Positions 14,401 to 38,500 of a DNA stretch of 59,942 nucleotides are shown in pieces (the stretch's first letter is position 1; each line of letters opens with the position of its first letter). The translations under genes and the position numbers were made by a program. The notes under the pieces are model-generated. The model was not told the DNA's origin and made no database searches. It saw nothing but the letters and a program-made list of their open reading frames with translations. The stretch is from a virus. The DNA lies in IMG/VR virus record IMGVR_UViG_3300033981_000848, positions 1 to 59,942 of that record. One strand, 5' to 3'.

Positions 14401-14484
14401 AATATAAGATTTCAAGCCTTGCAACAAGGTTGGCCAGCAATAAAAAAAATGAACGAACAAACAATGCAGTATGGCTCAAGATAA
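11446..14484 (+). CDS. Conserved virion cargo protein with glycine-zipper membrane segment
   Basis: 1012 residues. The N-terminal region (PYQPDLNLYSNLI, YGQYFYADLTRDDN, GLDLSLQQNVSQATQVFK, FKPFYEDKGLMKDMAW) is a pattern I recognise from crAss-like phage proteins encoded just upstream of the RNA polymerase genes. The middle is helical and charged, probably coiled coil. About residues 662-710 (13431-13580) form an Ala/Gly-rich hydrophobic stretch (GAAGGAAAGSAFFGVGAAPG) resembling a glycine zipper. This suggests a packaged protein that inserts into the host envelope during DNA entry; that role is inference. It overlaps the next gene by 14 bases (ATG 14471), which argues for translational coupling. 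Confidence 0.82.
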   Translation: MATFTSATFIPQLQPYQPDLNLYSNLIQNKQNQYDSNWKSLNRVYGQYFYADLTRDDNIQKKDYLVDQINFNVGRLAGLDLSLQQNVSQATQVFKPFYEDKGLMKDMAWTKNFNMQVLKAQGFQGSANEKDRAMFWDTGLKELEYRRGEFKDASAEKALNFQNVLYTPYVNVQDKALELAKEFGNIESVEMSQDGRWVIKRTNGQILEEPLQHLFEANLGNDPQVQAIYSTQAYVNRKDYAYSRAGEFNGDRNAAEMDYLEKNFNTLKRSSESRYKQLNESSVAYDNKIKDLQKQIDNGNKDPQLQQQLDAYIENKSINDEVLSQSKKQLDKMNSGQSSTATTSTGFKNPYEDIETLRYMVDNGVSASLLARDLNQAAHIYAYRNSKVDMDANPYAIMADKHQYNLSEIAERHKNDLEILSIKVAAERKMMVDKENVKLGRGMFNEKGEYVPFEDQDFTFLESDSEVSTDETNQYELSNKMFRNKANQYFTPYINNVTNTLQQLIKSGQMTEKQAGQILSTPNAPVESLSDFLKKHKGNLAGFASLTGADGLEKINSNFNTFLKNNGNLSVIKNNMTALQESNLEFTDYIDYVKANTKWKKDYANVTETELARRGIADKAITQLLYDDNGNQVSAETFAANVKRTGIEIGDQRSFLEALGDAALSTGTWAAAGAAGGAAAGSAFFGVGAAPGAVFGAFTGGVAGIINSFLEGPSAEENLKALYENLVSTADKEVWSDSRLIKTPPVGYEKTTDPGTGMAAMGIRSIMVNPYSSKGRYYWNGVMSDVNKLDFSDFMGQARISVTGRSEADYENAVGGSKYKAIINEIQREMSRPSSKTDMFKLSSAVVAGGNANLGAIIIKPSAEFLKKFKSTNADDNNNLLNKTEYEDALKNGISIIANSDYLQNPLYQENFKDPLALRVDNSPNQTYTYTDPLDGRYQFEIQKNPLGMGDYSITTKYPVWDPTIGDFRIATTNDNTITAGNNLTNIRFQALQQGWPAIKKMNEQTMQYGSR

Positions 14485-20400: not shown

Positions 20401-23083
20401 TGTTAAAGGAGTACGTATTGTATTAGGCAGTAATCTTACTGCAGAACAAGCTCAAAGAAAGTCTATAGAAATTGCAAATAAGTTTAAACAACAAGATCTT
20501 TTATGGTATAAACCACAAACTCTTGAGGATAAACTTAGTACTCTAGAAAGTTCTAAGAAGAGTTATAGTAAAGATGCATTAAAAGCAATTGATCAAGAAA
20601 TACAAAGAACAAAAGATACTTGGGGAAAAGAACTTCAACTAGGTCAATATTTTGATACAGCTACTAAAACTATTTGGGATAGTAAAGAACTTTATGATAA
20701 ATCTAAAGGAGCTGTTTCAGCCGAAGAAAAAGTACAAAGAAGAATTTCACTTAATGATGTTTTATCATTAGTAAATGAAAGAGTGTTTGAACAAAAAGCA
20801 GAAACTGAAACTTACGTTACAGATCAGATTAAAAATTTCTTAGCAGATAAAGAGGTTAAAAATGACCCTACATTATTAAGTCAACAAGCTTTTGATAGTT
20901 TATTTGGTAGTAAATCTATATTGGCCGAACTAAAAGAGAAAGCTAATTTAGGTGACATAGTTATTATTCCAGCCAAGCTTACAGTATTTGATATTCCAGC
21001 AGGTGTTGCAGGAGAAATTAATTTCTTACTAGTAGATAGAGAGGGTAATACAACTATTGTCCTTGTAAAAATGGGTGATGTAAATAAGTGGGAAGAATAT
21101 GATGATGAAACAAGTGATGTCTCTAAAAAAGAAAGTTATGGACTTGAGCTTGTAGCAGCTAAGAATATGTTATATAACATGACTGGTATTAATCCAAAAA
21201 CTGTTTTATTACCATTACAGATATCAACTGATTCAGCTACAGGAAGAATAGAAACAATTGAATCTGCTAGTCCAATATTAGTTCCTGGTAAGATTGTAGC
21301 TCCAGTAGATCCTAATCAAACAACTGTAGATGGAGAAACTCTTCAAATAAAAATCAATGACATTATTCCAATGAGAACAGCATCTGGAGAACCTGTTATT
21401 GAAGAAGTAGTAGATGAAGAACAAGCAACAATTGAACAAGAAGTAGAAGATATAGCAGCACAACAAAGAAGGTTAGCAAAAGAAAATAAAATTGCAATCC
21501 TAGATAAAATACAAACTCTAAGAAGTAGACAACAAAAATTAGATACAGATTTAAAAAAGATCAATGACATCCTTAACTATTTAGATACTATCGGTAATGC
21601 ATCTATTGAGTTGACTGCAGATGAACTTACAGATATAATAAACTCTATTACTGCATTAGATCAAGTAACTGGTCAGTATCTTAAATCTAAATTTAGAAAA
21701 GGTCGCGGAAAAACATCTATTAAAAATCAAGATGTTAGAGATCAGTTTAGAAGAGAGTTTGTTGTAATTGCAGGTGTAGTAGGAAGATTAGAGGATCTTA
21801 GAAAAGAAAAAGAAATACTTACTGCACAGGTAAAGGATCTTAATGATCAAATAGACTATTATCAAAATATTTTAGATACAGAAGACTTAGCATTGTTTAG
21901 TAGGTCTGACATTAAAATAAAAATAGCAGAAATAAAAAAGAAAATAAATTCTTTAAATAGATCTATTAAGACAATTAATGATACAATACTTAGAACTAAA
22001 AAACTTTTAAAAGAGTATATTGATGGCATTAAAAAATTAGACTCTCAGGTAGGACAGCAATTACAATTAATACCGGATGCTAATTATAAACCACTTTCTA
22101 AAGAAGAAGTTGAAAGATTAGAAGAAGCAGTAGATAACTTAGAGAATGCAACACTAGAAGATTTTAATTCTATTGTAAAACAGTTTAAGAATCTGAGATC
22201 AAGACTTTCAGCTACTATGGATGTAGCAGAACTAACTCCTAAAGTTAAAGAGCTAGAAATAGAAAGAATTAACTCATTACAAGAGAGTTTAAAGAGCTAT
22301 AACAAAGAGGTTAGATACTTAAATGATATTCTTAATGAGGTATCAAAAGAATCAATTGCAAATAAATTATCTGATAAGAATTCTAATGGACCAAAACCTA
22401 CTAATACTAAGAATACAAGCTCTACAAATAAAAACAAACTTGATGAAACTATAGATAAATCTAAAGGTGATGTTGTATCAGAGATCTCACTAGGAGAGAT
22501 ACTAAGTTTAGCAGAAAGACCTGTTAAGGAAAGTGTTATTAGTGAGAAAGGTGCTGACATTATTTCGAGAATAAATAAGTCTACTGTAGATGAAATCAAA
22601 GAGATGTTAAAAGATGTTTCGGATCTAACAGCTTATGAAGTAAAAGTTATAAATGATGCTGCAAAAAGCAGAATCAAATCCTTAACAGAAGAGTTTAAAT
22701 CTGAGATAAAAGATCAGATGAATGACATACAAGAGACACAGTATGTAACTATACAACCAATAGATGATATTCCTGCTGGCTCACTCATTACAATAACAAG
22801 TATGGAAGGTGATAATATTACTTTTGAAGTTGCTAATTCTAATGAGAAAAAAAGTGTTAAATTTGATAATCTAAACGGTAAAATCATGACACAAGAGGAA
22901 GCAAAATCTAAGTCTGCTGTAGAGAAAATTGAAATTACTCCAGAAGCTAAATCAAAAATTATTGAGAGCATTACAGCAGCAGATAGTTTAACTAATGCAG
23001 ATATTGATAATATCATTGATGCAGTAAAAGATAAAGACTTAGATACACTAGAAGAAGAATTATACAATAAAAAGATTTGTTAA
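14471..23083 (+). CDS. Giant virion cargo protein with ART-like and degenerate nuclease-like domains
   Basis: 2870 residues. Seen in order: an N-terminal conserved region; an Ala/Gly-rich hydrophobic segment (about residues 222-273); long helical stretches; a domain with LTTGQAGKGLVPGWYPFFGI (about 1570-1600); an ADP-ribosyltransferase-like domain (about 1750-1870; VLFHGGPKFDKF, then NFSFSATPITSLTYALRY); a segment resembling a PD-(D/E)XK fold (about 2090-2260) in which the usual GxID reads GEIN and the D-x-K strand reads LVKMG, so it is probably inactive; and a C-terminal coiled-coil region (about 2330-2630). Such large proteins lie next to the RNA polymerase in crAss-like phages and are packaged with it. 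It ends in NKKIC, similar to the end of the next protein. The next gene begins after one base. Confidence 0.82.
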   Translation: MAQDNTNFDPLAPLGPSIGKFNMDVTNPLNLDPYGFKRLDIDQVKLTNVIPNYGSLTNPQRSIRDNVVGNPPNPPGPKKNVSFEESAQAADSYMRSIFQTNQDKNEYSRIFGYNAGPDGNNYYKRYAAYGSKKMDEVGFSPFRDNEAIYNERTTKWNDFTRMVNHSLLPGLWLGIKSGAQGTLDMLQGDFTSIDLNNAEDFEKYSNIGMSTKGGAFGFINNALNSFGLSAGIIIETIAEQAATKALEAGLVATGAGIPAAGALEATADASAVAKIAKVGKLFGNLDKAFGTAVKTLESSQTARNFWKAVNTPIGKFINPLGNTFDAMNDIRKAQAFGNLTSLAKLSKTAGGFYRDMKFINAAVTEAKLEGGMQQNKVYYDLYNLHYKNTGQAPSNKQMYDMMVQSEKAGLENLGWNTGVIYLSNKLVFPSIAGGKGTASILGARTKEILNLERGKVVFKTIKEEGKKLAKGEFTYVENGIRGSIKRLREDGFKAGFKNLSAKSVVGLGKYFKANIGEGLQENFQETISEALGNYYVNTFNSDAVKAHLYSKGAIADASRSKASYFKDAWANQNPFTKQGFETFATGFIMGAFASPINNLPNWASNGYNRMFRPEHYADYKNKKNAFGESIAETLTKLYNENPGEFFDSKLFNLGNQEILTKIIQEGGRKNVLDAKDFALVSQVVTALRSGTLDMFKERIESFRDLTPEEFEDAVQNIPKGEGLKYQSRIDGIVQRMNEIKTNYDKINDKYVNPIDISQYEKGTDAYKQAQLFSQAWEVAKMNAIFMGSSYQDAVKRMKDISTKIKSSKPLSKMTDSEIQLLLEPSRMFNERNILKEEIEAQKNVLSPEELRKKQNKLKALEALSEAYKNYDKFENNQVNEIIEKFKESGELQNIADENNISIDEAEVQLRKEINRANRVGERTNENRLEVEANLENAYKEYLKAIANSTGDIYLSEEAEAAFEMILDNYKLGKESSILANYVNVLNNPRDFMDHVQRNYLWMSNLYNNRRDYFSNIVNQQLDNIELNALLNELADRNVYISEDEAAEFLRTATIPTEFYDDTRKVVIKEGHPEYDNYAIFFERAAAVRKLNPKGRSADNTALNLTLARLEAERKAALDALAKTEERVEKGPINIPKGTKATINDVDLQMNVGQYAEVKYKSGLRVRELILYKSKEGLRYNGPTGELVNKNNVKQGFEVGKKYTLELVADKAAIDKINSEFTEKKINAIQELTARAQSEKLTQASTFIPFTKNTKFELMDEALRKQLENAFNQYVEDTEGLADELSEVSDEKLLSELDNFIQNNPRAEKVIEQYNNKMKEKLTAQQLDEVEPPVMQVRGKDQDFKNLDIKDIKANIKKIETDIKKLKDKTDLTDQERENLAILEFNLALANKYLNYKLNFKESPKRSKVIKEVSKVIDQQGDITFDETTNQYTVNGNKLEKVNKEIERVISEKYQEKQRDQIAQIYNNTLAKNNSVDDFISELKKANLPGFTEDTYNELSEKLKALTGETTEAPVTSTKGRKGLNNIEEIIFSNPNFKLEGFTIDGNYWNVVTSTDRAKVLVNINGTIVPFYLTTGQAGKGLVPGWYPFFGIGKDGWLNKTDKSDMETYYERYWGKETADIVKSISEELNNFYGTDPSAFTNDGDPNATSKPLSTLADKVEDYINSKLSYTPAINNADARKTLRSNVEKLGKEITSKYDSAQSSLEPTTTTEDIEAKKADIERRRQEELNKAFDNNKNALKDQIDKAIKDKGWKTDNVLFHGGPKFDKFDKQFFQTGEYSNVDMRRVAESMGVRIPKGNFSFSATPITSLTYALRYGKNNPTLYIVNKTESLNARELTGNKEKDAQEWIIDGDNIFDTISVPLIPNADKINAKYDAELAALEGKPTSQVSTEGPKTGFRTFNVPISKKEDIADVVAGPLVPASEIFWDKNIQTTGSWIESIQGKAGGQDYIEIAYDSLSEENKKIANELKESDTNFGGVKGVRIVLGSNLTAEQAQRKSIEIANKFKQQDLLWYKPQTLEDKLSTLESSKKSYSKDALKAIDQEIQRTKDTWGKELQLGQYFDTATKTIWDSKELYDKSKGAVSAEEKVQRRISLNDVLSLVNERVFEQKAETETYVTDQIKNFLADKEVKNDPTLLSQQAFDSLFGSKSILAELKEKANLGDIVIIPAKLTVFDIPAGVAGEINFLLVDREGNTTIVLVKMGDVNKWEEYDDETSDVSKKESYGLELVAAKNMLYNMTGINPKTVLLPLQISTDSATGRIETIESASPILVPGKIVAPVDPNQTTVDGETLQIKINDIIPMRTASGEPVIEEVVDEEQATIEQEVEDIAAQQRRLAKENKIAILDKIQTLRSRQQKLDTDLKKINDILNYLDTIGNASIELTADELTDIINSITALDQVTGQYLKSKFRKGRGKTSIKNQDVRDQFRREFVVIAGVVGRLEDLRKEKEILTAQVKDLNDQIDYYQNILDTEDLALFSRSDIKIKIAEIKKKINSLNRSIKTINDTILRTKKLLKEYIDGIKKLDSQVGQQLQLIPDANYKPLSKEEVERLEEAVDNLENATLEDFNSIVKQFKNLRSRLSATMDVAELTPKVKELEIERINSLQESLKSYNKEVRYLNDILNEVSKESIANKLSDKNSNGPKPTNTKNTSSTNKNKLDETIDKSKGDVVSEISLGEILSLAERPVKESVISEKGADIISRINKSTVDEIKEMLKDVSDLTAYEVKVINDAAKSRIKSLTEEFKSEIKDQMNDIQETQYVTIQPIDDIPAGSLITITSMEGDNITFEVANSNEKKSVKFDNLNGKIMTQEEAKSKSAVEKIEITPEAKSKIIESITAADSLTNADIDNIIDAVKDKDLDTLEEELYNKKIC

Positions 23084-23084
23084 A

Positions 23085-26000
23085 ATGGCTATTACTTGTG
23101 CATTAGGATCAGAACATATTGAAGCTCTTACAAGAGTTATAAGTAAAGCAATGTTAAACTCACAAGCTAAAGGTGAGTCATTTGACATTAATGATTTTAT
23201 GAATAGATTATACAGTAACCTTAAAAGTAGACAAGGTGTTGATAGTGCTATTCAATATATGCAACAAGTACCATATATAATAAATCTGGTAGCAACTAGG
23301 AAAGACATAGAGCTTTCAAAAGATAATACTGGTAATGAGATAAATATACTACCATTATCTAGGGCATTTAGAAATCAAGATAGTGGAATTCAAATGGTCT
23401 ATGGATACTTTGAAAAAACATTATCCCCTAAACAATTAGCTCTAATTGCTGAAGATAATGCTAATAAACCGGTAGATCAATATACTGAATCAAAACCAGT
23501 ACAAGAGTTAACTAGTCCAACTGATAAGAGATTAAAATCTAGAAATGTAAACTCTGGAACTGATGAACAGTTTTTAGCTAAGGATCCAAAAACTAAAATT
23601 GAAGAATTTGAAGTAACAGATTCTGATAAAATAACTGCTATTAATACTGTGTCAAGATTAAGTATTAATACAGCTGATATAGACTTATTAGATAATGCAA
23701 GTATTGATGGAGTAAATTTAAAACTAAAAGTTATTCCTTTAGATAGACTTTCATCAAATGATAGAACAAATTATTCAAATGCAATAATAGCAAAACAAAA
23801 TGCAATAATTAATCAAGGTGGTGAAAGTAAAGTAACACCAGTTTCAGAACAATTTGCTTTAGTTCTATCTGATGCATCTGGAGCCTTTGTTTATTTTACA
23901 AAAGATGGAAGAGTAAGTACAAAAGATGAGGGTGGTAGAATAGTCTATCAGATGCTAAGAGATGTAAGGCTAGAGAATGGTAAGTATAGAGTTACTGATA
24001 TTTATGGTATAGAAGATCAGATAATTTCTCCAGAGGATATTGTAAATGATGAAATTTCTTTGTTATATGGGTCTAAAGAAAATTTAGAAAATGCAAAAGG
24101 AATGTCTTTTGCAGAGTATGTTAAAGAAGTTGAAAAACAACAACAAGAAGAGTTTAAAAAACTTTATGACTTTAGACAAGAGTTAATTAGTACTAAGAAA
24201 ACAAAACTGTTAACTATTACTGGAGCAACACGCGGAGTATTTAGTTTTAAAATACTTAACAATATAAAGATTAACAATCTATCAAGCTACTTTACTGAAG
24301 AGCAAAGAAAAGCAATTATTAATAGTTTAAATGTAACACCCATTAAGTTTGAAAACATTCCTAGTGGTGGGTCATATGTAACAATTAATAATGAGATATA
24401 TGAGGTAGATAGAGCAAATATAAATGAAGATACAGCAAGAAAGGTTGCCGCTGTATTAACAAACCCCAATATATCAAATGAACAAAAGATTAGATTTTAT
24501 CATCAGTTTTTTACTGATCAAAAAATTTCTATTCCAGCAAGCTTCCAAAGACATAATTTAAATCTTGTAGATGGAGAACTTATTTTTTCATATGCACCAT
24601 TTACATTAAATGAAGCAAAAGCAGATGCAAGTAAAGCAGCACAAAATAAGGAACCAAAAACTATAGACCTTAAATCTAGTACTGCTGAAAAAGATATCTA
24701 TGATATTTTTATGAAAGGTGCCACCGGTAAAAATGGAGAGCCTTTTAGTTCTAAAATTGTGTATAGACCAAGATTAGTTGGTGAGGAATATTTAGATTAT
24801 CAAGATGGTCAATTTGTATTGAGAAGCTATTCAGATTTTTTACAAGAACAAAATGCAAGAATAAAAGTAAAAGATGGTAAAATAATTCCATTATATAATT
24901 CTAGTATTAATTTTACTCTTGATGATACTTTTGTAGATCAAGTAAATGAAGCAAAAGAAACTGTAGAAAAAGATGATAGATCTGAAATAAGAAAGTTTAA
25001 GGATAACTTAGTTGAGGTAATAAAAAACTCACCAGATCAAAAAGTATTAGCTACTGTAAAAGAATATACTACAGAGGGTGATCCTAAGACAGGGACATTT
25101 TCTACATATATAACTGTAGAAATTGAAGGTCAACAAGGAGAGCACAAGCTAATGAAGTCTCTAAATCAGCCTCAGATAGGTGAAACATTAGAACTTATTA
25201 TAGATCCTATTGAAATAGAAAATGGCTTTGGATATCCAAATAATATTTCTGCAATTAAAATAGAAGGAAATAATATAATAAAATATGGAAATCTTCAAGA
25301 AACAGATTTTGGTAAAGAAACTTCTAGACCAGCTGTTCCAATGCAAGAAGAATATGTTGCAGAACAAGAAGAAATAGAAGAATTAGATGAGGTTACAGAA
25401 GCACCAAAGACTGTTTCAGAAGAAGAATCAGATACACAACAATCAGAAGCTTTAAATCCTAAGAATGTTAGAAATCCATCAGATGATTCTGAAATATCTA
25501 ATCTTTTTAATCAGTTTAAATTAGATAGAAAAACAAGCTTACCAGAAGGAGTAACAGCTGAACAAATTAGTAATGCTATCAGTTGGTATGATAAATCACC
25601 ACTAAAGAAATATCTTGGTGAGTTACAGATGATTAATATAGTAAACTCTGATGCTTATGCAAGATTTGTTACGGCTGGATCAACATTAATTGCTGGACAA
25701 TATACTGGAGCACTGGGTGCAATACAAATTAATGAAGCTACAGGAGGTTCAGTAGTTGATGCTTATCATGAAGCTTGGCATGCCTTCTCTCAGTTGTTTT
25801 TAACTAGAGAAGAAAAAATAGCTTTGTATGAAGAACTAAGAAAGAGTAATCCAAAGTATAAGAATTATTCTTTCTTGCAATTAGAAGAAATTCTTGCAGA
25901 AGATTTTAGATCATATGCACTAAATCAAAAAACAAAGCCAAGTTCTCCTAAAAGAAATTCTTTATTTAGAAGAATACTTAACTTCTTAAGAAAGTTGTTT

Positions 26001-29000
26001 GGTAAAACAACAAGTATATCTGATAACTTACAACAGTATGATGTTGAGTCAGAAGGAGTAGCAGGTGAGCTTTTTAAAAACTTGTATCTTGCAAGTAATA
26101 ATCCCGAGTTATTAAACATCTACACACCTAGTATTGATAATGTAATGTTTGATATTCTTAATAGGGGAATTACACAGACAGAGAATAAAAATGAAATTGC
26201 ATTAAATCAGAAAGATACAAATGATGTAGTAGAGTCAATAGACTCTGTTATCTCTGATATAATAGATGAGCAGTATCAAAGAGAGAAATCAAGTGGAAAG
26301 GATAATAAAGCTGGTACTACAAAGATTATTACTGATTTAAATAATAGAAAAGTAGCTTATCAAATTGCTAGACTTAAGTTTATAGAAAAAATTGATGAAA
26401 TAAAATCAAGACTTAAGATAGCACCAGAAAAACCATTTACTTCATTTAGTACAATAAAGGATTTAGAAGATAATGCTTCTGCAATTATTAGGTCAAAAAA
26501 TGGAGACCATAAATATATTTTTCTAGCAACACAGATAGAAGATTATAATAACTTAGATCTTGCAACTGAAGGAGATCAAAGAGTTAAAGGAGAATTATAT
26601 AAAGACCAAGTAGAAATTGTAGGTGATTTTTACACACATAAGTCTATAAAAGATTCTACTAAAGGTAATGCTACAATTATTGTTGTAAATGATATAAGTG
26701 AAGGTAAGGAACAATACGATAGTTATGTAGCTGCAGGAGAGGATACATTTACTTCATTTGAATTAAATCCATTAGTTACTGCAGAATCAGTAGCTAATAT
26801 AGGTAGATTGCAAGGAAAGCTCCTAGATAACTTAAGAGTATTACAAACGGCAGTTAAGAACTGGGATTCAGTAATTAAGTACCATGAAAAAAACAGTAGC
26901 TTTGAAATTATTTCTAGCACTATAGATCTTGTAGAAGATGATGCAACTACAGATGTTACTAAATCTGAAAAAATAGGTAAAGACATTGGTAAAGAATCAC
27001 TCTTTGAGTTGGGTGGTAAGGATGTAATTTATATTCTTAGGAGCTTACATAAAGTAACAAAACAAGGTGATAATTATGTGACTGAAAAAGACAATCTTGG
27101 ATTTAAAAAACTAGTAGACTTTAAAAAAGTTTGGAATAATCTAGTAAGAATAACTGAGAGTACTAAAGATCCAGAGGTCATATATAATAAAATTGTTGAG
27201 GCATCTAACAGATTTCCTGAACTTAAACAGCTTGTAGAATTTAAATTACCAAAACCGGATTCAAAAAATAATAGTTATGAGTTTGACAACATAACTTCAT
27301 TCTGGTCTGTATTTAGTTTACCAAGAGTTCCTTACATGCAGCTGTCCTTATTTAAAACTGAGGGTGGCATAAGTACTGAAGTTACTCCAGGCTCATTAGA
27401 TGTAAAAACAGTTATAAAACAATTCCAATATGATTACAAGTCTAACAAGGAAAGTAAGTATGTATTTACAGATAATAATAATAATGTATATCTAAATCTA
27501 AAGAAAATAGTTAGTGACTTTGCTGACTCAAATAGAAATTTTGATGTTAGAAAAGCAAGTGAGTTTTTAAAAGTATTAGGTATCACACTAGATAACAATG
27601 AAAGAATAAACTCTGAAATTACTAATGCAAATAAACTATCAAGGGTATATGGTTTACCATACATCTATGATACTTTAAAAGCTGCTCAATTTACAGATAG
27701 TTTAGAAAAAAGAACTGAAGCACAAGATAATTTATTACGTGATTTAAAATTAAATCCTATAGGAGTATTAATCAATGGTATTGATAAAAATCTTATTGGT
27801 GAAGCTGACTCAAGAGTTTTTAAAAATGGCTCTAAGCAAAAGACACAGATAGAAAGAATTGCTGAACTTCAAGTAAGATATGGATCAGCAACTACTTCTT
27901 TTAGTTCTACTAATGCTGAGAGAAATAGAATAAATGAACACACTACTGATAACACATTTACAGTATTGATAGATGCTCTTAATACAGTTGAGAAAAAGAC
28001 TGATATGTACAGAGAAGGTAGTGTTTTAAGATTTCTTGATCCAAGAAAAAATCCAATGGCTAAAAGCTCATTTGTATTAAGAAATTTATTTGATGCAAAT
28101 GATAATAAAAAGAGCAATAGATCAATTAAATATTTCCAACAGTCTGGAACACAAGAAACAAATAATGAAGCTACTGATGGTGGACAAAACACAACATCAC
28201 TAAGCCAACAAGGTAAGTTATTACAAGAGTTTCATACAATGTTAAAAGCTGGTCATCAAGAAATTATGAGACCAGGTTCTAAATCTTCTGCTTGGGGATG
28301 GTTATTTGAAGGAGGATTTGTATCTAGACAAGCAATAGGTCAGAAGTCTGAACCATTTTTATATGCTGATATTAATTCTTTCATACCACAAACAGGAACA
28401 GAAAGAGAAATTATAGAAGAAATAATATTACCTTATTTAGCTTCAGAAACAAATAGAATTAATGTATTTAAATCAAATCCTGAAGCTAAAAATTATGTTG
28501 GTTATAATCAACCTGTAAATGATAGTGGTCAGCTATCTGGTGAAGTATATAATTATTTTGATGGTATTTTAAATTCGGGAACTAAAAAAGAAATACTAGA
28601 AAAAGTAAATAGCCCTAGCACAGATCTTCTTGATTATTTAAAAACAGATCCTGATTTATACAATAAGATTGTAAATGAAATAGCAAATTACTTTGATAAA
28701 AAATCAGTAGAGTTATTAGATGAGATTAAGAAAACTGAGTTCATTGACTTTAAGCTGATAAATAGATTTGGTAATATTGAACTTTCAGATGAGCAAAGAA
28801 AACAAGTTTTAGCAAAAGCTTTCTTTTATAATTCCTGGATACATAATGTAGAAACAAGTATATTGTTTTTTACAGGAGATATAGCTCAACTTGATCATTC
28901 TAAAGATGCAGCATTCAAAAGACTTTCTGGATTAATTTCAAACGGTCCAAGAATTAGAACTGATATTTATGCTCAACTATTTATAAGCAATAGTTCTGAA

Positions 29001-32000
29001 GGTGGATTTAATTCAAATACATATGCAAAATCTCTTGGAGAGGCATATGATAAGTTTAAGTATGATGGGTATATTAATACAGCTATCATAGAAGATATAA
29101 GTAGGGATAGTATTTTTATGTCTGAAATTAAAAAAGGTTTAATTGCAGATTTTAAACGTAGAAACTCTAAACTATCAGATAGAGAAATAGAACTTGCTGT
29201 AGAAAGAGCAGTTAAAAAATATAGTAAATCTGACATAAAAGAAGGTGATGGACAAGGTTATATAACTATTGATTCTTATAGAGCAATCAAAAAGTTAATG
29301 AACAAGTGGTCAACTTCACAGGAGAAACTTTATCAAAGAATCATTAATAAAGAAGAAATACCATTAACAGATTATATAGAAGGTTTCCCGGTTCTTAAGT
29401 TACAAAACTTTGGTTGGGTAGAAGATACAATACTGCCAGTACAAGCAATGCATAAGTTTGCATTAATGCCATTAATTCCATCTGCTGTTAAAGGAACACA
29501 GTTGGAAGAATTACACAAAAAGATGTTAGAACAAAACATTCAGTATGTAACATTTGCATCTGGTTCTAAAATATCTGGAGTAACATCTAATGGAAAACCT
29601 GATCAAGTATTTGAAGATGGAGGAAAAGCACTAAAAGAAAGTGTGACTTTTACAAATAACAGAATAAATGCAGCATTTATTAAAGAAGCAACATCTGTAC
29701 CATCTAAATCTAAGGGTAAAGTAATATTCTCAACACAGTTAAGAAAATTAATATTAGAAGGATTAAAGGAAAATGGTCAGTATGTATCTGATAAAGCAAA
29801 AGAACTTGGTAATAAATATGAATCACTAGTTAATTTCTATAATGAATTAGTAAGAAAAGAATTAGAGAATGAAATAGGATACAGAAAAGATGAATCTGGA
29901 ACTTATATTGGTAACCCTTCTAAATTTTTAAAACTAATTCAAACTAACTTAAAAGCCAAAGACTATCCTCAACATTTAATAGATCAACTCAAAACTAATT
30001 CTGATGGAACATTGCAGTATGATCTATCATATTTCTTAGATACAGAAACTATAGAGAATATAGTAATGTCTCTTATTGAGAAAAGACTTGTTAGGCAAAA
30101 AGTAAACGGTGATGCACTTGTACAGGTAGCAAATAGTATGTGGAATGGAACCTGGGATGTTACTCAGGGAAACAAGTTTGCAAACTTGTCTAAAGAGGAA
30201 CTTGAAGCTGCACGCAAGAAATATTTGGGAACTAATGGTTTACCTTTCTATACTAAAGGTAAAGATGGTAAGACATTATCAATGAAAGTTGCCATTACAT
30301 TACAAGGTGATTTCTTTAATTTATTAAATCTTCAACATTTAGATGGTCAACCAATCAAGACTATTGATAGGTTAAATGCAATGATTAAGGAAGATGCTTG
30401 GTTAGATATTGCTGACAATAGAAAGTCTGTTACATTAACTGCAGTAAGAATACCAGTACAAGGTCTAAACTCTATGGAATTTATGGAAGTCTATGAATTC
30501 TTAGATCCTTCTGCAGTAAACATGATTATTCCACCAACAGAAATAGTTGCAAAATCAGGATCTGACTTTGACGTTGATAAGTTAACTACATTCTTTCCAA
30601 ATATAAATAAAGATGGTAGTTATGTTAGATCAAGTATCTCTAATCAAAATTTCTTTAAAGAAGTAAGTGCATTAGAGAACCAGGAAAAAAATCCAAAGGA
30701 TGTTATTAGTACGCAAAAGAAAGCAGCAGAGAATGAGTTTATTGAAACTATCAAAAGTATATTAGAGATAGAAGAAAACTATGCCTCACTAGTAACTCCT
30801 AATGACACATCAATCCTAGAAGACATTGCAATTAAATTACAAGATCTTGTAAGTACAAGAGATAAGTATGCTAAAGTAAATGATGAGAAACCAAATGTTT
30901 CTAAAAAGGGTACTAAGTATGCATCTCCAACATCAATATTTGAGCCTTTAACAAATGTAGAAAAGCATGCTCAAAACTTGGAAGGTAAGCGGGGACTTGG
31001 TATTGTAGCAAATCAAAATGCATTAAATCCATTATATACTTCTATAGGGGCTAAGATGCCTAAGAAATATAAACCGGCAGAATATAAAAAGAAATATGGA
31101 AGGTATGTAGAGAGTAAGAAAAGTAAGGCAGTATTTGATGTAAGATTATTTTTGCCACATAATGAAATAGATGGACATATCTCTTTGTCAAATATTTACA
31201 CTAATGATAATATTTATAAAATAGCTGAGATATTTTCACAAGCTTTAAATGGTACTGTGGATGTTGAAACCAATCCTTGGATATTCTATATTCAGGGTAA
31301 TGTTCAAGCACTTCCTGTGTTTTTATATCTCACTGAAGCTGGGGTTAGTCCTGAAGATGCAGTTTATTTTATATCTAATCCATTAATTAGAGAGTATACA
31401 GAAAATCAAAGACTCAAAGGTGGAGTTTTTGGAAGAGCTTCTGGTGTAGCACCAGAACTAGCTCCTGCTCTTAAATATGAATCTGCAAAACAAGTATTTG
31501 ATAAATATAAAGAGAGATTTATATTAGACAGAATTAAATCACTTTCTGATAGTACTGAACTTACTATAGAATATTTTAGAAAGAATCCTGTTACAGATGC
31601 ACCAGAAAAAGTTTCTGAAAAAATTACAAAAGGTAATTTTATAAATCAATTACCAACATTAGCTCCAAATCTTAATTTAGTTAAAGCAGAAGGAGTAGCA
31701 CAAGTAATTTATAGAAACTTCATACCCTCAAATAAAAATGTATATGCTGTATCATCATTCTTATCAAATATACCTGGTGTCTTAAGACGTGGAAGTTTTG
31801 ACAAGAATAGTATGTTTGAGATGATTCAGAAAAAGGGTGAGCTATCTCCAGAACAATTGACAAAATCTCTTGCAATGTTAGCTCACTATGTAGAAATAGA
31901 AAACCAGTTAAGGGGTATAAATGCATTAAAGAATCTATCTAAACCAGATGTTAGAAATCTTAGGACTCCACAGGAAGCAATTAAAAGAGAGTTAGATGTT

Positions 32001-35000
32001 GATTTAGCATTTGATAACTCTAAGATTGACTTAGAAACTGCAAAGGGTGTTTTAGAAGAAAGTATTATTGCATCATTTGGTGATAAGGATATTATTGAGA
32101 AAATCTTTATGCCAATGATGGATTTAATCAATGGACCTAAAGTAAATAGATTCTTGTTGGATGCCATGGGTGGCTATGAAGGTAATAGCAAACTTGAAAA
32201 AATAGTTGACTCAAAAAAATATAAAGCAACACAAGAAGGTCTTACTAGATTCAATAGAGATTTTAAATCAGGTTTAAAAACATTTGTATTTCAAAACTAT
32301 TTGTCTAATACAGTATTTGAGGATGGTAAGTTTGTAATGATACCAAACAAGTATAGACAACAAGAAGTTAAAATAGATAATTCTATTGACACAGATGTAA
32401 CTATAAAAGATGGTGTTTTCTTAATTAATCAAAATAGAATAAGAGAGGACTATACTAATAAAAGATATTTGGATACAAGTACAAGTGCGGAAAGCTATAC
32501 AGAAAGACAAGGTTTAGAAGCATTTCCTTCAAATGAAAATGATCTATTTCCTACAGAGGAAAGTTACATTAGATATGTACTTGAAAGAGAAAATCTATTT
32601 CAGAAAGGTCTTAGAGGTGATGAGTTAAATCAGTTTGCTTTAATTAATACATTTAATCCTGGTGTAATTATAAATCCCGGGAAGTATTCTTATAGTGACC
32701 TAGTAATGAGAACTATTGACAAACACAGATCAACATTGTCAAGACAATTCTCTATAATAGATCAGATAAGAAAATATGTAGAAGCTGGTGCAAATAAAAG
32801 CATTCTTACTCTAACTAACAGAGATGTAATAGATGGTAACACAGCAACTCTTTATGCTTCAGAATTAAAACAACTGGGCAATGCAAAGATTCAGAAAGTA
32901 AAAAATACTGAAACAAGTCCTGAAGAGAATGAGAGACTCAGTAGAATATTCAAGTTGTTCCCACTATTAATGATTTATCAGCATGGTGTAGGTAAAACAC
33001 TTAATGGTTTTGATAATGTTCTTCCACAGGATGATTATCTAAAGATAATGAAAGCTGCGGGAGATTTATTTAAGAACAACTATGACAATAATAAAACATA
33101 TGATTTTGTATTAGATAAAATAACAGATCCAAATAATAGAAGGTTTATAGATTTTACAGTAACAGATACTGAGTATTCTCAGTATATACCAAAAGTATTG
33201 CCTGCAGAAGAAACAGAAATAACTTTTGAAGATGAAGAGTTTCAACAACCTACCCAAGCTACTGTAGCTGATATACCACAAAACAAAGTATCTGGAATAG
33301 AATCCTTTGGTTCTACAGTTACTGCAAATTCTGAAGTAATTAAAGCACTTGGGGCAAATCCACATTCTATAGATATGATAGAGGCTGGGTTTAGAACCAG
33401 AACTACAAGAAGTGAAAGTGAAATGTCTAAGTATGCTGTTAAAGTTGGAGATATAATCAAACACTTTGGTAAATCAGCAGATGGTACAACTAAAAATATT
33501 TTAGCTAGAGTAACTGCTATTCATCCTAAAGGAACACCTGGATTTAAAGGAACTTGGAATAAAGAAGGTTGGAGAGCGGAAGATGTAAATGTAATAGATA
33601 GATTTAAAGACGGTGCTGCAGCAATAGAATTTGAAGTCATTAAACCTACTCAAGCACCTGGACTGTCTGAAAATCAATTACTAAATAAAGTAGGGGACAT
33701 CATTACACGGACATCTAAATTAAAATATAAGACAGTAACCAATACAGGTACTATAAGAAAAATAGAAAAAACAGAAAATGGTTATAATGTCACTCTAAAT
33801 ATTAAAGGTTATGATGGCGGTACTGTGATAAATGTTATAATAGAAAATGGAAAAGTAATAAAATCAATTCAAAAAAATCCCTTGAAAGTAGGGGAATTTT
33901 TAGAAAACACAACTTCTACTTATGACTTTAAATTTTCAGAACCCATATCTACTCAACCTACAGTACAACCAGTAGGAGAAATTAAAGTTTTGTTAGATAA
34001 ATATGGTAACTCTACACCAATTTTAGGAATAATAGATAGAAATAAAGATCTATTTAATAAAGCAAATATTTCTGCTATTGCTTCTTTTGGTTCTGTAGTT
34101 TATGATATGGTATTACAAGATACTATATATAATAGAAAAGGTGGAGTTGAGGGATCCAAGGAGTATATTGATAATCTTTCAGAATTTTATAGATCAATAA
34201 GAAAAGCTTCAGGTCAAAATCCTTTTAATCCAGAATCAATTTTACATGGATTTCAAATAAATCCAAAGTATAGAAAATATATAGATGCTTTTTTAGAGTA
34301 TAAAGGATTACCTGCTAATACTAATGTAATATTTTTTAATGACGAAAAATATAGAGATTTTAAATTAGAATCTTTATTAATACACGAAGCTGCTCACAGT
34401 TTTGATAATCCTGGCATTGATCTATCAGATAAGCAAGTAGAGTTAATAATAAAAGCTTTTGATGAAGTTGCTAGAGATGAGAATGAATATTACGGTATAG
34501 ATAGTGGAAATTATCTAAAAAGAGAATTAGCTAAAGGTAATAAAGATGAGATTATACCTGTTCTTACTGAACTTTATATGGCAACACCAAAAGCTGGATA
34601 TTATTTAAAAAATATATTATCAGAAGAACAATTTAAATTATTAGAGTCTATATTGTCTACTCAACCTACTATTCAAATAGAAACAAAAGCTGAAACAATA
34701 CAAGAACCTGGAACAGTAGCTTCTAAAACAACAGCTCAGTTACCACTATCAAATACAAACATCGCTAAAGTACTAGATGGTAGTAAAGTAATTACTACTA
34801 GAACAGAACTTATTGCAGATGATACATATCTTGCTGGTGATACACAACAAGTAAAAATAAAATATTATGGTATTGCACGGGTAGTTGGTAATTCGGTAGT
34901 AATCACAAACGAAAAGACAAACAAATCTTTTGTAAGAAGTAAGGACAGCTTTGCTAAAGCAGAAGGATTTAAAAACTGGAGTGACTACACAAACAACAAT

Positions 35001-35516
35001 AGGTTCATGCAGAACTTTATAAAGGGTGATGCTACAAGGTATGTCTTTGGAATTACACCTGCAGGAAAGATCCAGCAAATGACCACTGTACAACAGAGAT
35101 TAAGCCCGGAAAATAACCCTGTCATAGGACTATTCAATGAAGAACTAGCAAGAACAAATGGAGTTTATCCAAAAGAATTCATCTATGAAAGTAGTGAAGG
35201 CACTAACAAATATGTTCTATCTGAGAATAATTTATACAATCTAGTTGATATTGACACAGGTAGTATATATCTTCGTAACATAGATCTTACAACTGGAAAT
35301 ATTGTTTCTGATATATTACCACAAACACCTGTTGGAAAAGATAGTATTACAAAATTCATTAATACTTTGAACAGTCAAATCAAAGAATACAGAATAGATC
35401 TAGTACTAGCCAATAAAGGTATAGATGTAAATGATATAATAGATCGTGCAGAGAATGTAAATAGTGAAGAGGAACTAAATGAACTTAGAATTATAATTAA
35501 TAAAAATTTGTGCTAA
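23085..35516 (+). CDS. crAss-like virion RNA polymerase polyprotein
   Basis: 4143 residues. The catalytic motif DFDVD (D2494, D2496, D2498; 30564-30578) in the context AKSGSDFDVDKLTTFFP matches the single-subunit, YonO/QDE-1-related RNA polymerases packaged by crAss-like phages. Upstream, about 2106-2142, is the typical segment LPVQAMHKFALMPLIPSAVK. Flanking modules: a zinc-peptidase motif HEAWH (residues 895-899) with EEILAEDF downstream; after the polymerase core, an ASCH/PUA-like domain (about 3400-3525); a second zinc-peptidase motif HEAAH (3767-3771); a clearer ASCH domain (about 3885-3995; KVITTRTE, EGFKNWSDY); and a C-terminal domain ending NKNLC. Pro/Thr/Gln linkers (QQPTQAT, STQPTVQPV, STQPTIQI) separate the last modules. 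Expected role: injected with the DNA to transcribe early genes. The polymerase call is firm; functions of the other domains are inferred. Confidence 0.93.
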   Translation: MAITCALGSEHIEALTRVISKAMLNSQAKGESFDINDFMNRLYSNLKSRQGVDSAIQYMQQVPYIINLVATRKDIELSKDNTGNEINILPLSRAFRNQDSGIQMVYGYFEKTLSPKQLALIAEDNANKPVDQYTESKPVQELTSPTDKRLKSRNVNSGTDEQFLAKDPKTKIEEFEVTDSDKITAINTVSRLSINTADIDLLDNASIDGVNLKLKVIPLDRLSSNDRTNYSNAIIAKQNAIINQGGESKVTPVSEQFALVLSDASGAFVYFTKDGRVSTKDEGGRIVYQMLRDVRLENGKYRVTDIYGIEDQIISPEDIVNDEISLLYGSKENLENAKGMSFAEYVKEVEKQQQEEFKKLYDFRQELISTKKTKLLTITGATRGVFSFKILNNIKINNLSSYFTEEQRKAIINSLNVTPIKFENIPSGGSYVTINNEIYEVDRANINEDTARKVAAVLTNPNISNEQKIRFYHQFFTDQKISIPASFQRHNLNLVDGELIFSYAPFTLNEAKADASKAAQNKEPKTIDLKSSTAEKDIYDIFMKGATGKNGEPFSSKIVYRPRLVGEEYLDYQDGQFVLRSYSDFLQEQNARIKVKDGKIIPLYNSSINFTLDDTFVDQVNEAKETVEKDDRSEIRKFKDNLVEVIKNSPDQKVLATVKEYTTEGDPKTGTFSTYITVEIEGQQGEHKLMKSLNQPQIGETLELIIDPIEIENGFGYPNNISAIKIEGNNIIKYGNLQETDFGKETSRPAVPMQEEYVAEQEEIEELDEVTEAPKTVSEEESDTQQSEALNPKNVRNPSDDSEISNLFNQFKLDRKTSLPEGVTAEQISNAISWYDKSPLKKYLGELQMINIVNSDAYARFVTAGSTLIAGQYTGALGAIQINEATGGSVVDAYHEAWHAFSQLFLTREEKIALYEELRKSNPKYKNYSFLQLEEILAEDFRSYALNQKTKPSSPKRNSLFRRILNFLRKLFGKTTSISDNLQQYDVESEGVAGELFKNLYLASNNPELLNIYTPSIDNVMFDILNRGITQTENKNEIALNQKDTNDVVESIDSVISDIIDEQYQREKSSGKDNKAGTTKIITDLNNRKVAYQIARLKFIEKIDEIKSRLKIAPEKPFTSFSTIKDLEDNASAIIRSKNGDHKYIFLATQIEDYNNLDLATEGDQRVKGELYKDQVEIVGDFYTHKSIKDSTKGNATIIVVNDISEGKEQYDSYVAAGEDTFTSFELNPLVTAESVANIGRLQGKLLDNLRVLQTAVKNWDSVIKYHEKNSSFEIISSTIDLVEDDATTDVTKSEKIGKDIGKESLFELGGKDVIYILRSLHKVTKQGDNYVTEKDNLGFKKLVDFKKVWNNLVRITESTKDPEVIYNKIVEASNRFPELKQLVEFKLPKPDSKNNSYEFDNITSFWSVFSLPRVPYMQLSLFKTEGGISTEVTPGSLDVKTVIKQFQYDYKSNKESKYVFTDNNNNVYLNLKKIVSDFADSNRNFDVRKASEFLKVLGITLDNNERINSEITNANKLSRVYGLPYIYDTLKAAQFTDSLEKRTEAQDNLLRDLKLNPIGVLINGIDKNLIGEADSRVFKNGSKQKTQIERIAELQVRYGSATTSFSSTNAERNRINEHTTDNTFTVLIDALNTVEKKTDMYREGSVLRFLDPRKNPMAKSSFVLRNLFDANDNKKSNRSIKYFQQSGTQETNNEATDGGQNTTSLSQQGKLLQEFHTMLKAGHQEIMRPGSKSSAWGWLFEGGFVSRQAIGQKSEPFLYADINSFIPQTGTEREIIEEIILPYLASETNRINVFKSNPEAKNYVGYNQPVNDSGQLSGEVYNYFDGILNSGTKKEILEKVNSPSTDLLDYLKTDPDLYNKIVNEIANYFDKKSVELLDEIKKTEFIDFKLINRFGNIELSDEQRKQVLAKAFFYNSWIHNVETSILFFTGDIAQLDHSKDAAFKRLSGLISNGPRIRTDIYAQLFISNSSEGGFNSNTYAKSLGEAYDKFKYDGYINTAIIEDISRDSIFMSEIKKGLIADFKRRNSKLSDREIELAVERAVKKYSKSDIKEGDGQGYITIDSYRAIKKLMNKWSTSQEKLYQRIINKEEIPLTDYIEGFPVLKLQNFGWVEDTILPVQAMHKFALMPLIPSAVKGTQLEELHKKMLEQNIQYVTFASGSKISGVTSNGKPDQVFEDGGKALKESVTFTNNRINAAFIKEATSVPSKSKGKVIFSTQLRKLILEGLKENGQYVSDKAKELGNKYESLVNFYNELVRKELENEIGYRKDESGTYIGNPSKFLKLIQTNLKAKDYPQHLIDQLKTNSDGTLQYDLSYFLDTETIENIVMSLIEKRLVRQKVNGDALVQVANSMWNGTWDVTQGNKFANLSKEELEAARKKYLGTNGLPFYTKGKDGKTLSMKVAITLQGDFFNLLNLQHLDGQPIKTIDRLNAMIKEDAWLDIADNRKSVTLTAVRIPVQGLNSMEFMEVYEFLDPSAVNMIIPPTEIVAKSGSDFDVDKLTTFFPNINKDGSYVRSSISNQNFFKEVSALENQEKNPKDVISTQKKAAENEFIETIKSILEIEENYASLVTPNDTSILEDIAIKLQDLVSTRDKYAKVNDEKPNVSKKGTKYASPTSIFEPLTNVEKHAQNLEGKRGLGIVANQNALNPLYTSIGAKMPKKYKPAEYKKKYGRYVESKKSKAVFDVRLFLPHNEIDGHISLSNIYTNDNIYKIAEIFSQALNGTVDVETNPWIFYIQGNVQALPVFLYLTEAGVSPEDAVYFISNPLIREYTENQRLKGGVFGRASGVAPELAPALKYESAKQVFDKYKERFILDRIKSLSDSTELTIEYFRKNPVTDAPEKVSEKITKGNFINQLPTLAPNLNLVKAEGVAQVIYRNFIPSNKNVYAVSSFLSNIPGVLRRGSFDKNSMFEMIQKKGELSPEQLTKSLAMLAHYVEIENQLRGINALKNLSKPDVRNLRTPQEAIKRELDVDLAFDNSKIDLETAKGVLEESIIASFGDKDIIEKIFMPMMDLINGPKVNRFLLDAMGGYEGNSKLEKIVDSKKYKATQEGLTRFNRDFKSGLKTFVFQNYLSNTVFEDGKFVMIPNKYRQQEVKIDNSIDTDVTIKDGVFLINQNRIREDYTNKRYLDTSTSAESYTERQGLEAFPSNENDLFPTEESYIRYVLERENLFQKGLRGDELNQFALINTFNPGVIINPGKYSYSDLVMRTIDKHRSTLSRQFSIIDQIRKYVEAGANKSILTLTNRDVIDGNTATLYASELKQLGNAKIQKVKNTETSPEENERLSRIFKLFPLLMIYQHGVGKTLNGFDNVLPQDDYLKIMKAAGDLFKNNYDNNKTYDFVLDKITDPNNRRFIDFTVTDTEYSQYIPKVLPAEETEITFEDEEFQQPTQATVADIPQNKVSGIESFGSTVTANSEVIKALGANPHSIDMIEAGFRTRTTRSESEMSKYAVKVGDIIKHFGKSADGTTKNILARVTAIHPKGTPGFKGTWNKEGWRAEDVNVIDRFKDGAAAIEFEVIKPTQAPGLSENQLLNKVGDIITRTSKLKYKTVTNTGTIRKIEKTENGYNVTLNIKGYDGGTVINVIIENGKVIKSIQKNPLKVGEFLENTTSTYDFKFSEPISTQPTVQPVGEIKVLLDKYGNSTPILGIIDRNKDLFNKANISAIASFGSVVYDMVLQDTIYNRKGGVEGSKEYIDNLSEFYRSIRKASGQNPFNPESILHGFQINPKYRKYIDAFLEYKGLPANTNVIFFNDEKYRDFKLESLLIHEAAHSFDNPGIDLSDKQVELIIKAFDEVARDENEYYGIDSGNYLKRELAKGNKDEIIPVLTELYMATPKAGYYLKNILSEEQFKLLESILSTQPTIQIETKAETIQEPGTVASKTTAQLPLSNTNIAKVLDGSKVITTRTELIADDTYLAGDTQQVKIKYYGIARVVGNSVVITNEKTNKSFVRSKDSFAKAEGFKNWSDYTNNNRFMQNFIKGDATRYVFGITPAGKIQQMTTVQQRLSPENNPVIGLFNEELARTNGVYPKEFIYESSEGTNKYVLSENNLYNLVDIDTGSIYLRNIDLTTGNIVSDILPQTPVGKDSITKFINTLNSQIKEYRIDLVLANKGIDVNDIIDRAENVNSEEELNELRIIINKNLC

Positions 35517-38500
35517 TGTCGTGTCCTAATAAAAATAGCAAAGAGTGGAAAGATGCAATGAACAGAGCTAATGGCAATGAAGAAGAGGCCATGAGAATCT
35601 GGACAACAGAGTATGACCAAGAAGGTGATGGTGGATCAGAGCCACAAACTGATGATATAGAAATGGCACAAGAAGAGTTTGAGCCAGAAGAAAAAACAGA
35701 CTCATTCTCAGACTTAGTACAAAGACTAAGAATATATCTTCAAAATAAAATTGAGATACTGCAAAGAACAGAAACAACTCTAAAGTCTGAAAAAATTGAT
35801 GAGCTTAAAAAGCTTCAAAAAAATATGTCAGAACTAGAGAATCTAGAATCTATAAATGCATTTGTTGAGTACGCATATAATCAGGCAAATCAAGCCTATG
35901 AATTAATGGGTAAAGTATTAAAAAGAATTCAGAATAATAGAATAAATAGAAAAGAAGCTATAGATTCACTTGTTGCATTACTAGAATATGCAAATAACTA
36001 TAATATATTAGATGATATAGATGCATCAGATATAGATAATTATTTTTCAGGTTCTGTAGAGGAAATAATGAAAAAGTCATCTGATCAATTAACTGCCCAG
36101 GATAAATTGACATTTGCAATAAATACTAGAAATAGAATTAAATCACAAGTAAATAATCAGGGTATTGAGTTAATGGCAGACTTTCTTTTAGATTATGCTC
36201 CTGCATCAATAGAAGAAAAAATCTCTGAGCAAATTGAAAAATATAAGCAGAGAATAGAAGATGTAAAGAATAATCCAAAAAATAAACCTGAGTTTATTGC
36301 TAAAAGAACTAAAGAGTTACAGGATCAAATTAATGAGTGGCAAAATTTTACTCTAGATAAAGCTAATCTTATTAAATTTCTTAAAGAAGCAGTAAGAGAT
36401 GAATCATTGATTGATTATCTCTTTACTCCACTTATAAGTTCTAATGACAGTGTAATAGCTTTATTTGCTAGAGCTGTTAAGACAGAGCTTGAAGATGCTA
36501 GAATGAAAGATATTAAGATACAAAGAGAACTGCAAAAAGCATTTAATGAGTATCAAAGGGTTGCTCCTGGTTCAAGAGATAATCCTAAAAAATTTAATGA
36601 GGGTTTATATGAAATACTAAGAGTTCCACTTAGAGATGCAGATGGAAATGTAAAGAAAGATGAAAGTGGAAATGTTATATTCATGGATAGAGCAGCATTT
36701 GTTCAGAAATATGATATTGTTAAGTTTGAGAATGATAGAATAGAGTTTTATAAAAAACTTGGTAAAAGACCCCAAAGAGGGAGTGAAGACATGGCCGCAT
36801 ATCTTGCAGCTGAAAGAGATTGGTACAGTGAAAATACTCAACCTATTTCAGAGGAAGAAAGAAAAGAAATAGTTGCTTATAAGAAGAATCAGCTTAAGAG
36901 AAAGATAATTACAGAAGATGAATATAATAAATGGGTAAAATCTGTTGTATATGAAAAACTTGATGGTTCTTTAGTATATATGAGAGAACTATCAACTCCA
37001 TCTAATAAGTATATATCTAGAAAATGGTCTGCATTGTATGATGAAAATGGTGTTCCCAAAAACGCAAAAGGTAAGTACCACAAAGCTTTAACTGATGTAT
37101 ATTTTAGCCAGCAGGATAAAATACCAGAGTTTTCTAGGATAGGATACTTCTTGCCTTCAGTTTTAAAGACAAAAGGTGAGAGGATGATTGATAATATTAT
37201 TAAAGCTGGTAAGACAGAATTTAAAGAGGCTTTTCAATTTACTGCAAATGACTATGAGTTTATGACATCAACACTTTCTGGAGAGGGTGCTGTTAAACTT
37301 ATACCAATTAGATACATTGAACCAATGGACGCATCTGAAACAAGTCTTAACTTATTAAGATCTGTTTTATTATTTAGTCAGTCTGTAAATAATTTTGAGG
37401 CACTTAATGGTATTCACTCAGAGACTAAGTTACTTAAAAGTATAATAGGTGGTAGAAAAATAAGAGCTACAACATCTGAAGGAAAACCTATATTAGATAG
37501 TGTCGCAAAAAAACTTGGTTATGAAAGCTATATAAATTTAAATGGTACACCATATTCTGAGTTACATCTAGATGCTTTTATAGATATGATTGTGTATGGT
37601 GAGATGAGAAAGAAAGAAACTTTATTTGGATATAATATTTCAAAAATCTCTGATACAATCATGTCTTACTCAGCATTAACAACTCTGGCTGCTGATCTTA
37701 TGAAGGGTGTAGCAAATAACTTACAAGCAAATATTCAAGTTATTCTTGAGGCTGCTTCTGCAGAATTCATAGATTTTAAAAATTATGCAAAAGGTAAAGC
37801 TGCAGCAAATTTATATTTAATTGGAGGTAATTTTCTTAAGGACTTTGGAAAAGGTGTTGCAGTAACTCTAGAAGGACAAATAATAGAAGAGTTTGATCCT
37901 TTACAAGGAGAGTTTAAAGATATGTATGGTCAAACAATAACTGGTTCATTAGCAAATAAGCTTTTCAGAACTAATACTCTGTTTGTAAACATGCATGCTG
38001 GGGAATATGAAATTCAAACAGCTATGATGTTTGCGCTAATGGATAGAGAGAAGGTAACTGATAATGCAACAGGTAAAGAAATGACATTATATCAGGCATA
38101 CAAAAAGTATGGTATGGAAGATGTCTATAATAAAACAAGTTACACTAAAAAACAAAAGCTAGATTTACAAAATAGATTGCATGCATTAAACAAAAGAATG
38201 CATGGTGTTTATAATAGTTTTGATCAGTCAGTAGCTCAAAGATACACTCTAGGCAGACTTGCATTAATGTATAGAAAATATCTTATTCCGTCATACAAAA
38301 AAAGGTTTAAGAGAGCAGGTATGGATGTTGAACTTGGTTCACCAACAGAGGGTTACTATGTGACTTTTTGGAAAACATTTATTAGAGATCTCAGAGATTT
38401 TAAATTTAATGTCATTAAAAACTGGAGTGGATATACTTCATTTGAAAAAGCACAGATCAAAAGAACTCTTTATGAAGTAAGTTTTGTACTTGCACTATAT

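Follow-up and report, generated by a model that had tools for sequence, protein, structure and literature searches.

The RNA polymerase cargo of crAss-like phages follows a cysteine rule: where two cargo proteins face each other, both facing termini carry a cysteine with few exceptions, and no pair is found at the outer ends of the series or at joints closed by gene fusion. Three adjoining proteins, A, B and C, obey this rule in the window, a 59,942-nucleotide stretch of viral DNA (IMG/VR record IMGVR_UViG_3300033981_000848, positions 1 to 59,942). From the sequences we think it probable that crassvirus cargo is a head-to-tail chain linked by disulfides, threaded through the tail and reduced in the host. 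Crassviruses are among the most abundant human gut viruses, and how they deliver polymerase cargo of over half a megadalton, in order, through a tail under 50 Å wide is an open puzzle (PMC10172136).

Protein B is encoded by a single reading frame, as the sequence-only reading of this DNA had called it, and the motifs HEAWH (residues 895–899), DFDVD (2494–2498) and HEAAH (3767–3771) all lie at the residues that reading had named. Its call of an RNA polymerase is borne out by homology: a translated search (tblastn) of phage records matched the core of B to the virion RNA polymerase of phi14:2 (PDB 6vr4, E=2e-15), and the catalytic motif stands in a similar context in both proteins (AKSGSDFDVDK in B, TKTGSDFDIDK in the phi14:2 enzyme). 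In total the core matched 91 phage records in translated search, nearly all of them crAss-like; a nucleotide search of phage records gave no match, and the whole chain had no informative match in Pfam, PHROGs or PDB sequences. An IMG/VR record that carries the identical gene (G001) also encodes homologues of crAss001 gp32 (MCP, E=1e-6) and gp20 (portal, E=2e-21). By its sequence, B is a crAss-like phage virion RNA polymerase of the phi14:2 type. Packaging into the virion and injection are established only for the phi14:2 and crAss001 homologues, with phi14:2 gp076–gp078 recorded as virion proteins by MS/MS, and by analogy would extend to B.

We collected 80 related loci, of which 50 non-redundant ones were used for counting joints. 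Conservation along B is moderate over residues 1–500, reaches 44 of 49 relatives in the zincin-type stretch at 800–1100 and up to 49 of 49 in the core at 1250–2780, and remains common over 2800–3350; residues 3350–3850 are private, and 3850–4143 recur in few relatives. Everything after residue 3350 is variable payload. The label 'polyprotein' that the sequence-only reading attached to B is not borne out, no cleavage site being known in it. As a protein, B is another crassvirus virion RNA polymerase with a fused zincin motif, a kind already known; combining several unrelated domains, among them the polymerase and the zincin motif, it is also a polyvalent-type chain, presumably injected.

Table 1. 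Features of the cargo proteins in the window (residue numbers below protein B are those of B)
Feature	Position	Strand	Description or basis
Upstream chain protein A	14471..23083	+	2870 aa; counterpart of the greater part of crAss001 gp47; 1 Cys, the last residue (codon 23078-23080)
Region of A homologous to crAss001 gp47 1714-1868	20804..21229	+	hhalign 97%, E=6e-11
Chain protein B, virion RNA polymerase	23085..35516	+	4143 aa, single ORF, exactly 2 Cys
Conserved zincin-type region, residues 865-1043	25677..26213	+	HEAWH 25767-25781; EEILAE 25884-25901; homologous to C-terminal end of crAss001 gp47
Polymerase core, residues 1250-2780	26832..31424	+	homology; DFDVD at 30564-30578
Conserved post-core region, residues 2800-3350	31482..33134	+	conservation along chain, in most relatives
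First 'ASCH-like' segment, residues 3422-3520	33348..33644	+	conserved only in L085/L086
HEAAH, residues 3767-3771	34383..34397	+	sequence; private to studied virus, unproven metallopeptidase motif
Second ASCH-like domain, residues 3890-3995	34752..35069	+	weak Pfam ASCH match and AlphaFold segment
Tail domain, residues 4008-4143	35106..35513	+	ends in Cys; separate small protein in L022, L023, L024, L027, L030
Downstream chain protein C	35516..38887	+	exactly 1 Cys (codon 35522-35524); C terminus without Cys

The terminal cysteines of A, B and C had been missed in the sequence-only reading. Those of B are C5 (codon 23097-23099) and C4143, its last residue (codon 35511-35513), with none between, and A and C each have a single cysteine, at the end that faces B (Table 1). 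Protein C was listed from a GTG at 35510 (1125 aa); its likely start is the ATG at 35516, which gives MSC with the cysteine as third codon. Other large virion-type proteins in the window have no cysteine or a few internal ones, proteins of the replication block contain about 1%, and the terminal rule is absent from the neighbouring virion proteins on the same strand.

Counting a joint as positive when a cysteine lay within ten residues of the end on both sides, we found that 93 of 96 joints in the 50 non-redundant loci carry the pair. The three exceptions are a wrong start codon (L067), a joint to an unrelated reading frame (L041) and a missing N-terminal cysteine on the B homologue of L022, which is probably due to a frameshift. 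The cysteine lies 0–9 residues from the C end and usually 3–6 from the N end, and across the 175,367 residues of the polymerases just 5 cysteines are internal. Five loci (Table 1, tail domain) possess an extra small link of 242–261 residues, or 655 in L027, that is homologous to the tail domain of B; its only two cysteines are residue 3 and the C-terminal residue.

The rule spreads across the order. In annotated crassviruses, facing cysteines stand at 26 of 26 breaks after one start-codon correction (cr110, with MSC at residue 15), a count limited to annotated records and taken over related genomes that are not independent; cysteine is found on none of the 16 outer N termini. The set comprises Steigviridae (phi14:2, crAss001, tikkala, cr128, DAC15, cr106, cr108, cr126), Intestiviridae (jaberico, cr11, cr110) and Suoliviridae (cr1, cr50, cr109, cr52, cr7, cr114), together with Dulem virus 41 and Flavobacterium phage Fpv3. 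The facing tryptic ends in crAss001 are CNS (gp47 C end) and CITTNSTIEELAAK (gp50 N end) at one joint, and ICGANTLYEL (gp50 C end) and CAIIPQVR (gp49 N end) at the other. In crAss001 and DAC15 the gp47-like gene runs on the other strand from the polymerase genes and the facing ends nevertheless match, and in cr106 too the rule holds between genes of opposite strands; the rule is therefore explained neither by operon structure nor by an RNA signal. Nor is the terminal pair a mere remnant of cysteine depletion, because gut lineages with up to 17 internal cysteines keep it. Poverty in cysteine is itself nothing special, N4 vRNAP and T7 gp15 and gp16 having none, and terminal pairing was not seen in the ejected proteins of N4 and T7. 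We found no earlier report of terminal cysteines or of such a chain in the open literature, which suggests that, within that literature, both the rule and the implied chain are undescribed.

Four joints of the colinear cargo are known both closed and open. Within the gp47 equivalent, crAss001 is continuous, and the studied family is cut, with a pair, between the positions that correspond to gp47 1868 and 2155. Most Steigviridae, the Intestiviridae and Dulem virus 41 have gp47 and polymerase as separate proteins with a pair at the joint; the studied virus, Suoliviridae and cr108_1, a member of the Steigviridae, have them fused, without a pair. Polymerase and gp49 are separate, with a pair, in most genomes; in Intestiviridae they appear to be fused without a pair, as judged from a polymerase reading frame of 4100–4400 residues followed by no further cargo gene. 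The joint between polymerase and tail domain is closed without a pair in L019 and L075 and split with a pair in L022, L023, L024, L027 and L030, and in a tree of the polymerase core the two fused loci are interleaved with their split nearest relatives L022, L023, L027 and L030. One apparent counter-example was met in L044 (1-4000), where protein A is apparently in two parts with no cysteine pair; this break has a four-base overlap and about 70 residues fewer than L064, and may reflect a frameshift, a deletion or a recent event. Read from the sequences, the breaks shift and the cysteine pair shifts with them.

Because only facing ends carry cysteine and fusion of two links removes exactly one pair, the pair looks like a covalent stand-in for the peptide bond. 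A packaging tag would be expected on every end, and only the link-facing ends have cysteine. By analogy, a disulfide would be the simplest chemistry for two facing cysteines, and disulfides are present in tail proteins of the crAss001 virion, namely the tail barrel and gp57 (PMC10172136). On this model, the facing cysteines would be oxidised in the virion, either once the cell has lysed or as the particle matures, and A, B and C, translated separately, would act as a single polymer, joined head-to-tail and about 8,100 residues long; for crAss001 the three linked proteins would come to about 694 kDa (262.5+276.9+154.5 kDa). Oxidation would come after lysis or by catalysis, because gut hosts are strict anaerobes. 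The virion would store the members of the chain jointly, one for one; in crAss001, gp47, gp49 and gp50 were detected in the virion, with about six copies of each suggested (PMC10172136). The linked cargo would then thread the narrow tail in a fixed order, and the reducing cytoplasm of the host would cut the disulfides, separate the links and free the polymerase for early transcription. The chain would be unnecessary for folding, because 6vr4 was solved from the phi14:2 polymerase alone. We lean slightly towards the further view that the terminal disulfides fix both the order of ejection and the stoichiometry, with a redox switch replacing proteolytic processing. Constrictions under 50 Å oblige the crAss001 cargo to unfold in part on its way, and its order of extrusion was left unexplained (PMC10172136); a covalent chain released by reduction would, if true, solve this puzzle and would amount to a new, post-translational way to assemble a polyprotein.

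Beside the polymerase, the HEAWH region would act as a conserved extra enzyme, and the stretch after residue 3350 as variable payload. HExxH is expected 0.018 times in B at its histidine content of 0.75% and was observed twice, so the two occurrences are not due to chance. All 45 non-redundant relatives that span the region keep HE[AGS][WF]H together with EExxAE 38–50 residues downstream, and thus have an HExxH with a downstream glutamate as candidate ligand; D892, Y894, F901 and R942 beside HEAWH are near-invariant. In Steigviridae and Dulem virus 41, where gp47 is a protein of its own, a homologue of the region makes up its C terminus; in Suoliviridae the homologue marks the joint within the fused protein. 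Wherever the region is present, it adjoins the polymerase in the chain. In a weak model of the region (pLDDT 64.8), two helices of about 90 pLDDT carry HEAWH and EExxAE and there is no beta sheet; Foldseek of this model against PDB gave no significant match, and Pfam searches of 43 homologues of the region returned only noise. Of the two zinc-protease motifs proposed in the sequence-only reading, HEAWH is, by its sequence conservation, a zincin-type motif, and HEAAH finds no counterpart in relatives with other sequences. The HEAWH region is a putative peptidase, for which zinc binding and proteolysis are predicted. A zincin fused to polymerase cargo is not new, because crassvirus records already annotate a 'putative RNAP associated protein fused to zincin protease' and 'ZnMc_tr' there.

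Could the zincin itself release the polymerase? The sequence-only reading had proposed that it cuts the chain after entry, and the probable site would be the variable linker at 1100–1250; we regard this as rather unlikely, and it is compatible with cysteine-linked ends rather than an alternative to them. It draws on the constancy of HEAWH and EExxAE in 45 of 45 spanning relatives, on the variable linkers that flank the region and on its place next to the N terminus of the polymerase in fused and separate forms alike; zincin processing was, moreover, proposed for injected multidomain (polyvalent) proteins in 2017 (PMC5512222), and N4 vRNAP too has a conserved HExxH (PMC12633501). As a general requirement the idea fails, because some relatives (Steigviridae, Dulem virus 41) encode the polymerase apart from the protein with the zincin, and there no cut is needed to free the polymerase. 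In addition, phi14:2 gp077 and gp078 both have no HExxH, no cleavage product is known, and the model of the region offers neither a sheet nor a PDB match.

The remaining explanations concern the cysteines themselves. Zinc or iron clamps occur at subunit interfaces, and a metal held by the termini of adjoining subunits, or a non-covalent thiol contact, would give the same placement of cysteines as a disulfide; yet each terminus has a single cysteine with no conserved histidine or second cysteine beside it, and the variable distance to the terminus fits a flexible tether and not a fixed metal site, which makes this improbable. We give slightly less credence still to homotypic contacts (A–A, C–C) or attachment of the cargo to the portal, gp45 or another virion protein: crAss001 gp45 does contain cysteine and gp57 is a disulfide-bonded dimer (PMC10172136), but such contacts leave unexplained the cysteine-free outer ends, the two cysteines of the middle link and of the small links, and the loss of exactly one pair on fusion. 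It strikes us as very improbable that low cysteine content and shared descent, or a nucleotide signal at stop-start codons, produced the rule as a side effect. Cargo proteins are generally poor in cysteine and many joints are stop-start overlaps; against this, both TGT and TGC are used, distances vary, the rule holds across opposite strands and in the cysteine-richer gut lineages, and pairs are gained or lost as breaks appear or close. Three other candidates were rejected: an intein or native ligation, the N-terminal cysteine being at residues 3–6 and not at residue 1; lipid attachment, there being no lipobox or signal peptide and the C-terminal position being variable; and an RNA-level signal, since genes on opposite strands obey the rule.

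The payload behind the polymerase differs from relative to relative. HEAAH is absent from all of them except the identical record; it lies in a model segment of pLDDT below 50, no profile matched it (DUF2268 at E=0.19), and a profile of other C-terminal HExxH domains with phi14:2 gp76 and N4 did not recover it, so we rejected it as a proven peptidase. The C-terminal extensions of the family nevertheless contain six HExxH against 0.07 expected, and HE[FY]xH (HEFAHPLV...FKEEVIV) is conserved in the long downstream cargo proteins, of about 1700–2600 residues, found in most family loci; putative peptidase motifs in the payload are, to judge from these sequences, a habit of the family. The subgroup to which the window belongs has short downstream proteins, and these lack HE[FY]xH. 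Of two ASCH-like domains proposed earlier, the second is plausible: Pfam ASCH was matched in 5 of 17 aligned rows (best E=0.029), and the AlphaFold model has a helix and beta strands there at pLDDT of about 76–93. The first is unsupported, with no library match, no structural support and a pLDDT mostly below 60. Foldseek of the C-terminal model as a whole (a weak one, pLDDT 55.5) against PDB found no significant fold match. Payloads in relatives include a 2OG-Fe(II) oxygenase, DUF7831, an AAA/PIF1-like helicase and NADAR, with further matches to YpsA-like SLOG, ART-PolyVal and Zeta-toxin-like domains; the extensions that hold them (L005, L010, L019, L030, L062 and others) are highly variable and reach 2076 residues.

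Several other observations were made along the way. The part of A at 20804..21229 corresponds to a crAss001 gp47 segment that, on inspection of its motif (GEVD...DIKT), resembles PD-(D/E)XK; A has GEIN...VLVK there, so that its own motif looks degenerate. In cr108_1 (L108, 19300-19700) the polymerase reading frame breaks within DFDxD (KAGSD / YDIDK), probably at an intron. Small thioredoxin-like genes lie in the replication block of crassviruses OQ198719, NC_055878 and MH552500 and may serve ribonucleotide reductase or cargo redox. Elsewhere in the window, the minus strand encodes a spore-photoproduct-lyase-like radical SAM protein (58171-59052; Pfam SPL, 9e-23) and a protein with a DUF2201 putative metallopeptidase and a VWA-like domain (47212-48390), and the plus strand (2-4492) a truncated large protein whose C-terminal region is lytic transglycosylase-like by PHROG matches, with HELFH at residue 39 and no cysteine.

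The closest known systems are the phi14:2 virion RNA polymerase (gp66 in RefSeq, gp077 in KC821624; 6vr4) and crAss001 gp50, which resemble B in the core, with K[ST]GSDFD[IV]DK, and in standing within a cargo block with N- and C-terminal cysteines. They measure 2180–2412 residues against the 4143 of B, which adds a gp47-type zincin end ahead of the core and, after it, a variable payload and a tail domain. The crAss001 proteins gp47, gp50 and gp49 form the same three-part set with one cysteine per facing end (PMC10172136); crAss001 is cut after the zincin, whereas the studied family is cut about 900 residues before it. The structural disulfides of the crAss001 particle, in the tail barrel and gp57, show that inter-subunit disulfides exist there (PMC10172136), but they staple folded interfaces, whereas the cargo cysteines sit in terminal tails, in place of a peptide bond. 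N4 vRNAP and the polyvalent proteins (PMC5512222, PMC12633501) share with B a giant injected RNA polymerase fused to an HExxH domain, and relatives of B have mixed payload domains (2OG oxygenase, NADAR, helicase, ART-PolyVal); unlike B, N4 vRNAP is a T7-type polymerase, a single polypeptide with zero cysteines and no chain. T7 gp14–gp15–gp16 and other ejectosomes resemble crassvirus cargo in that several proteins are ejected through the tail before the DNA, but T7 has no terminal pairing, the only cysteine in its three proteins being Cys2 of gp14.
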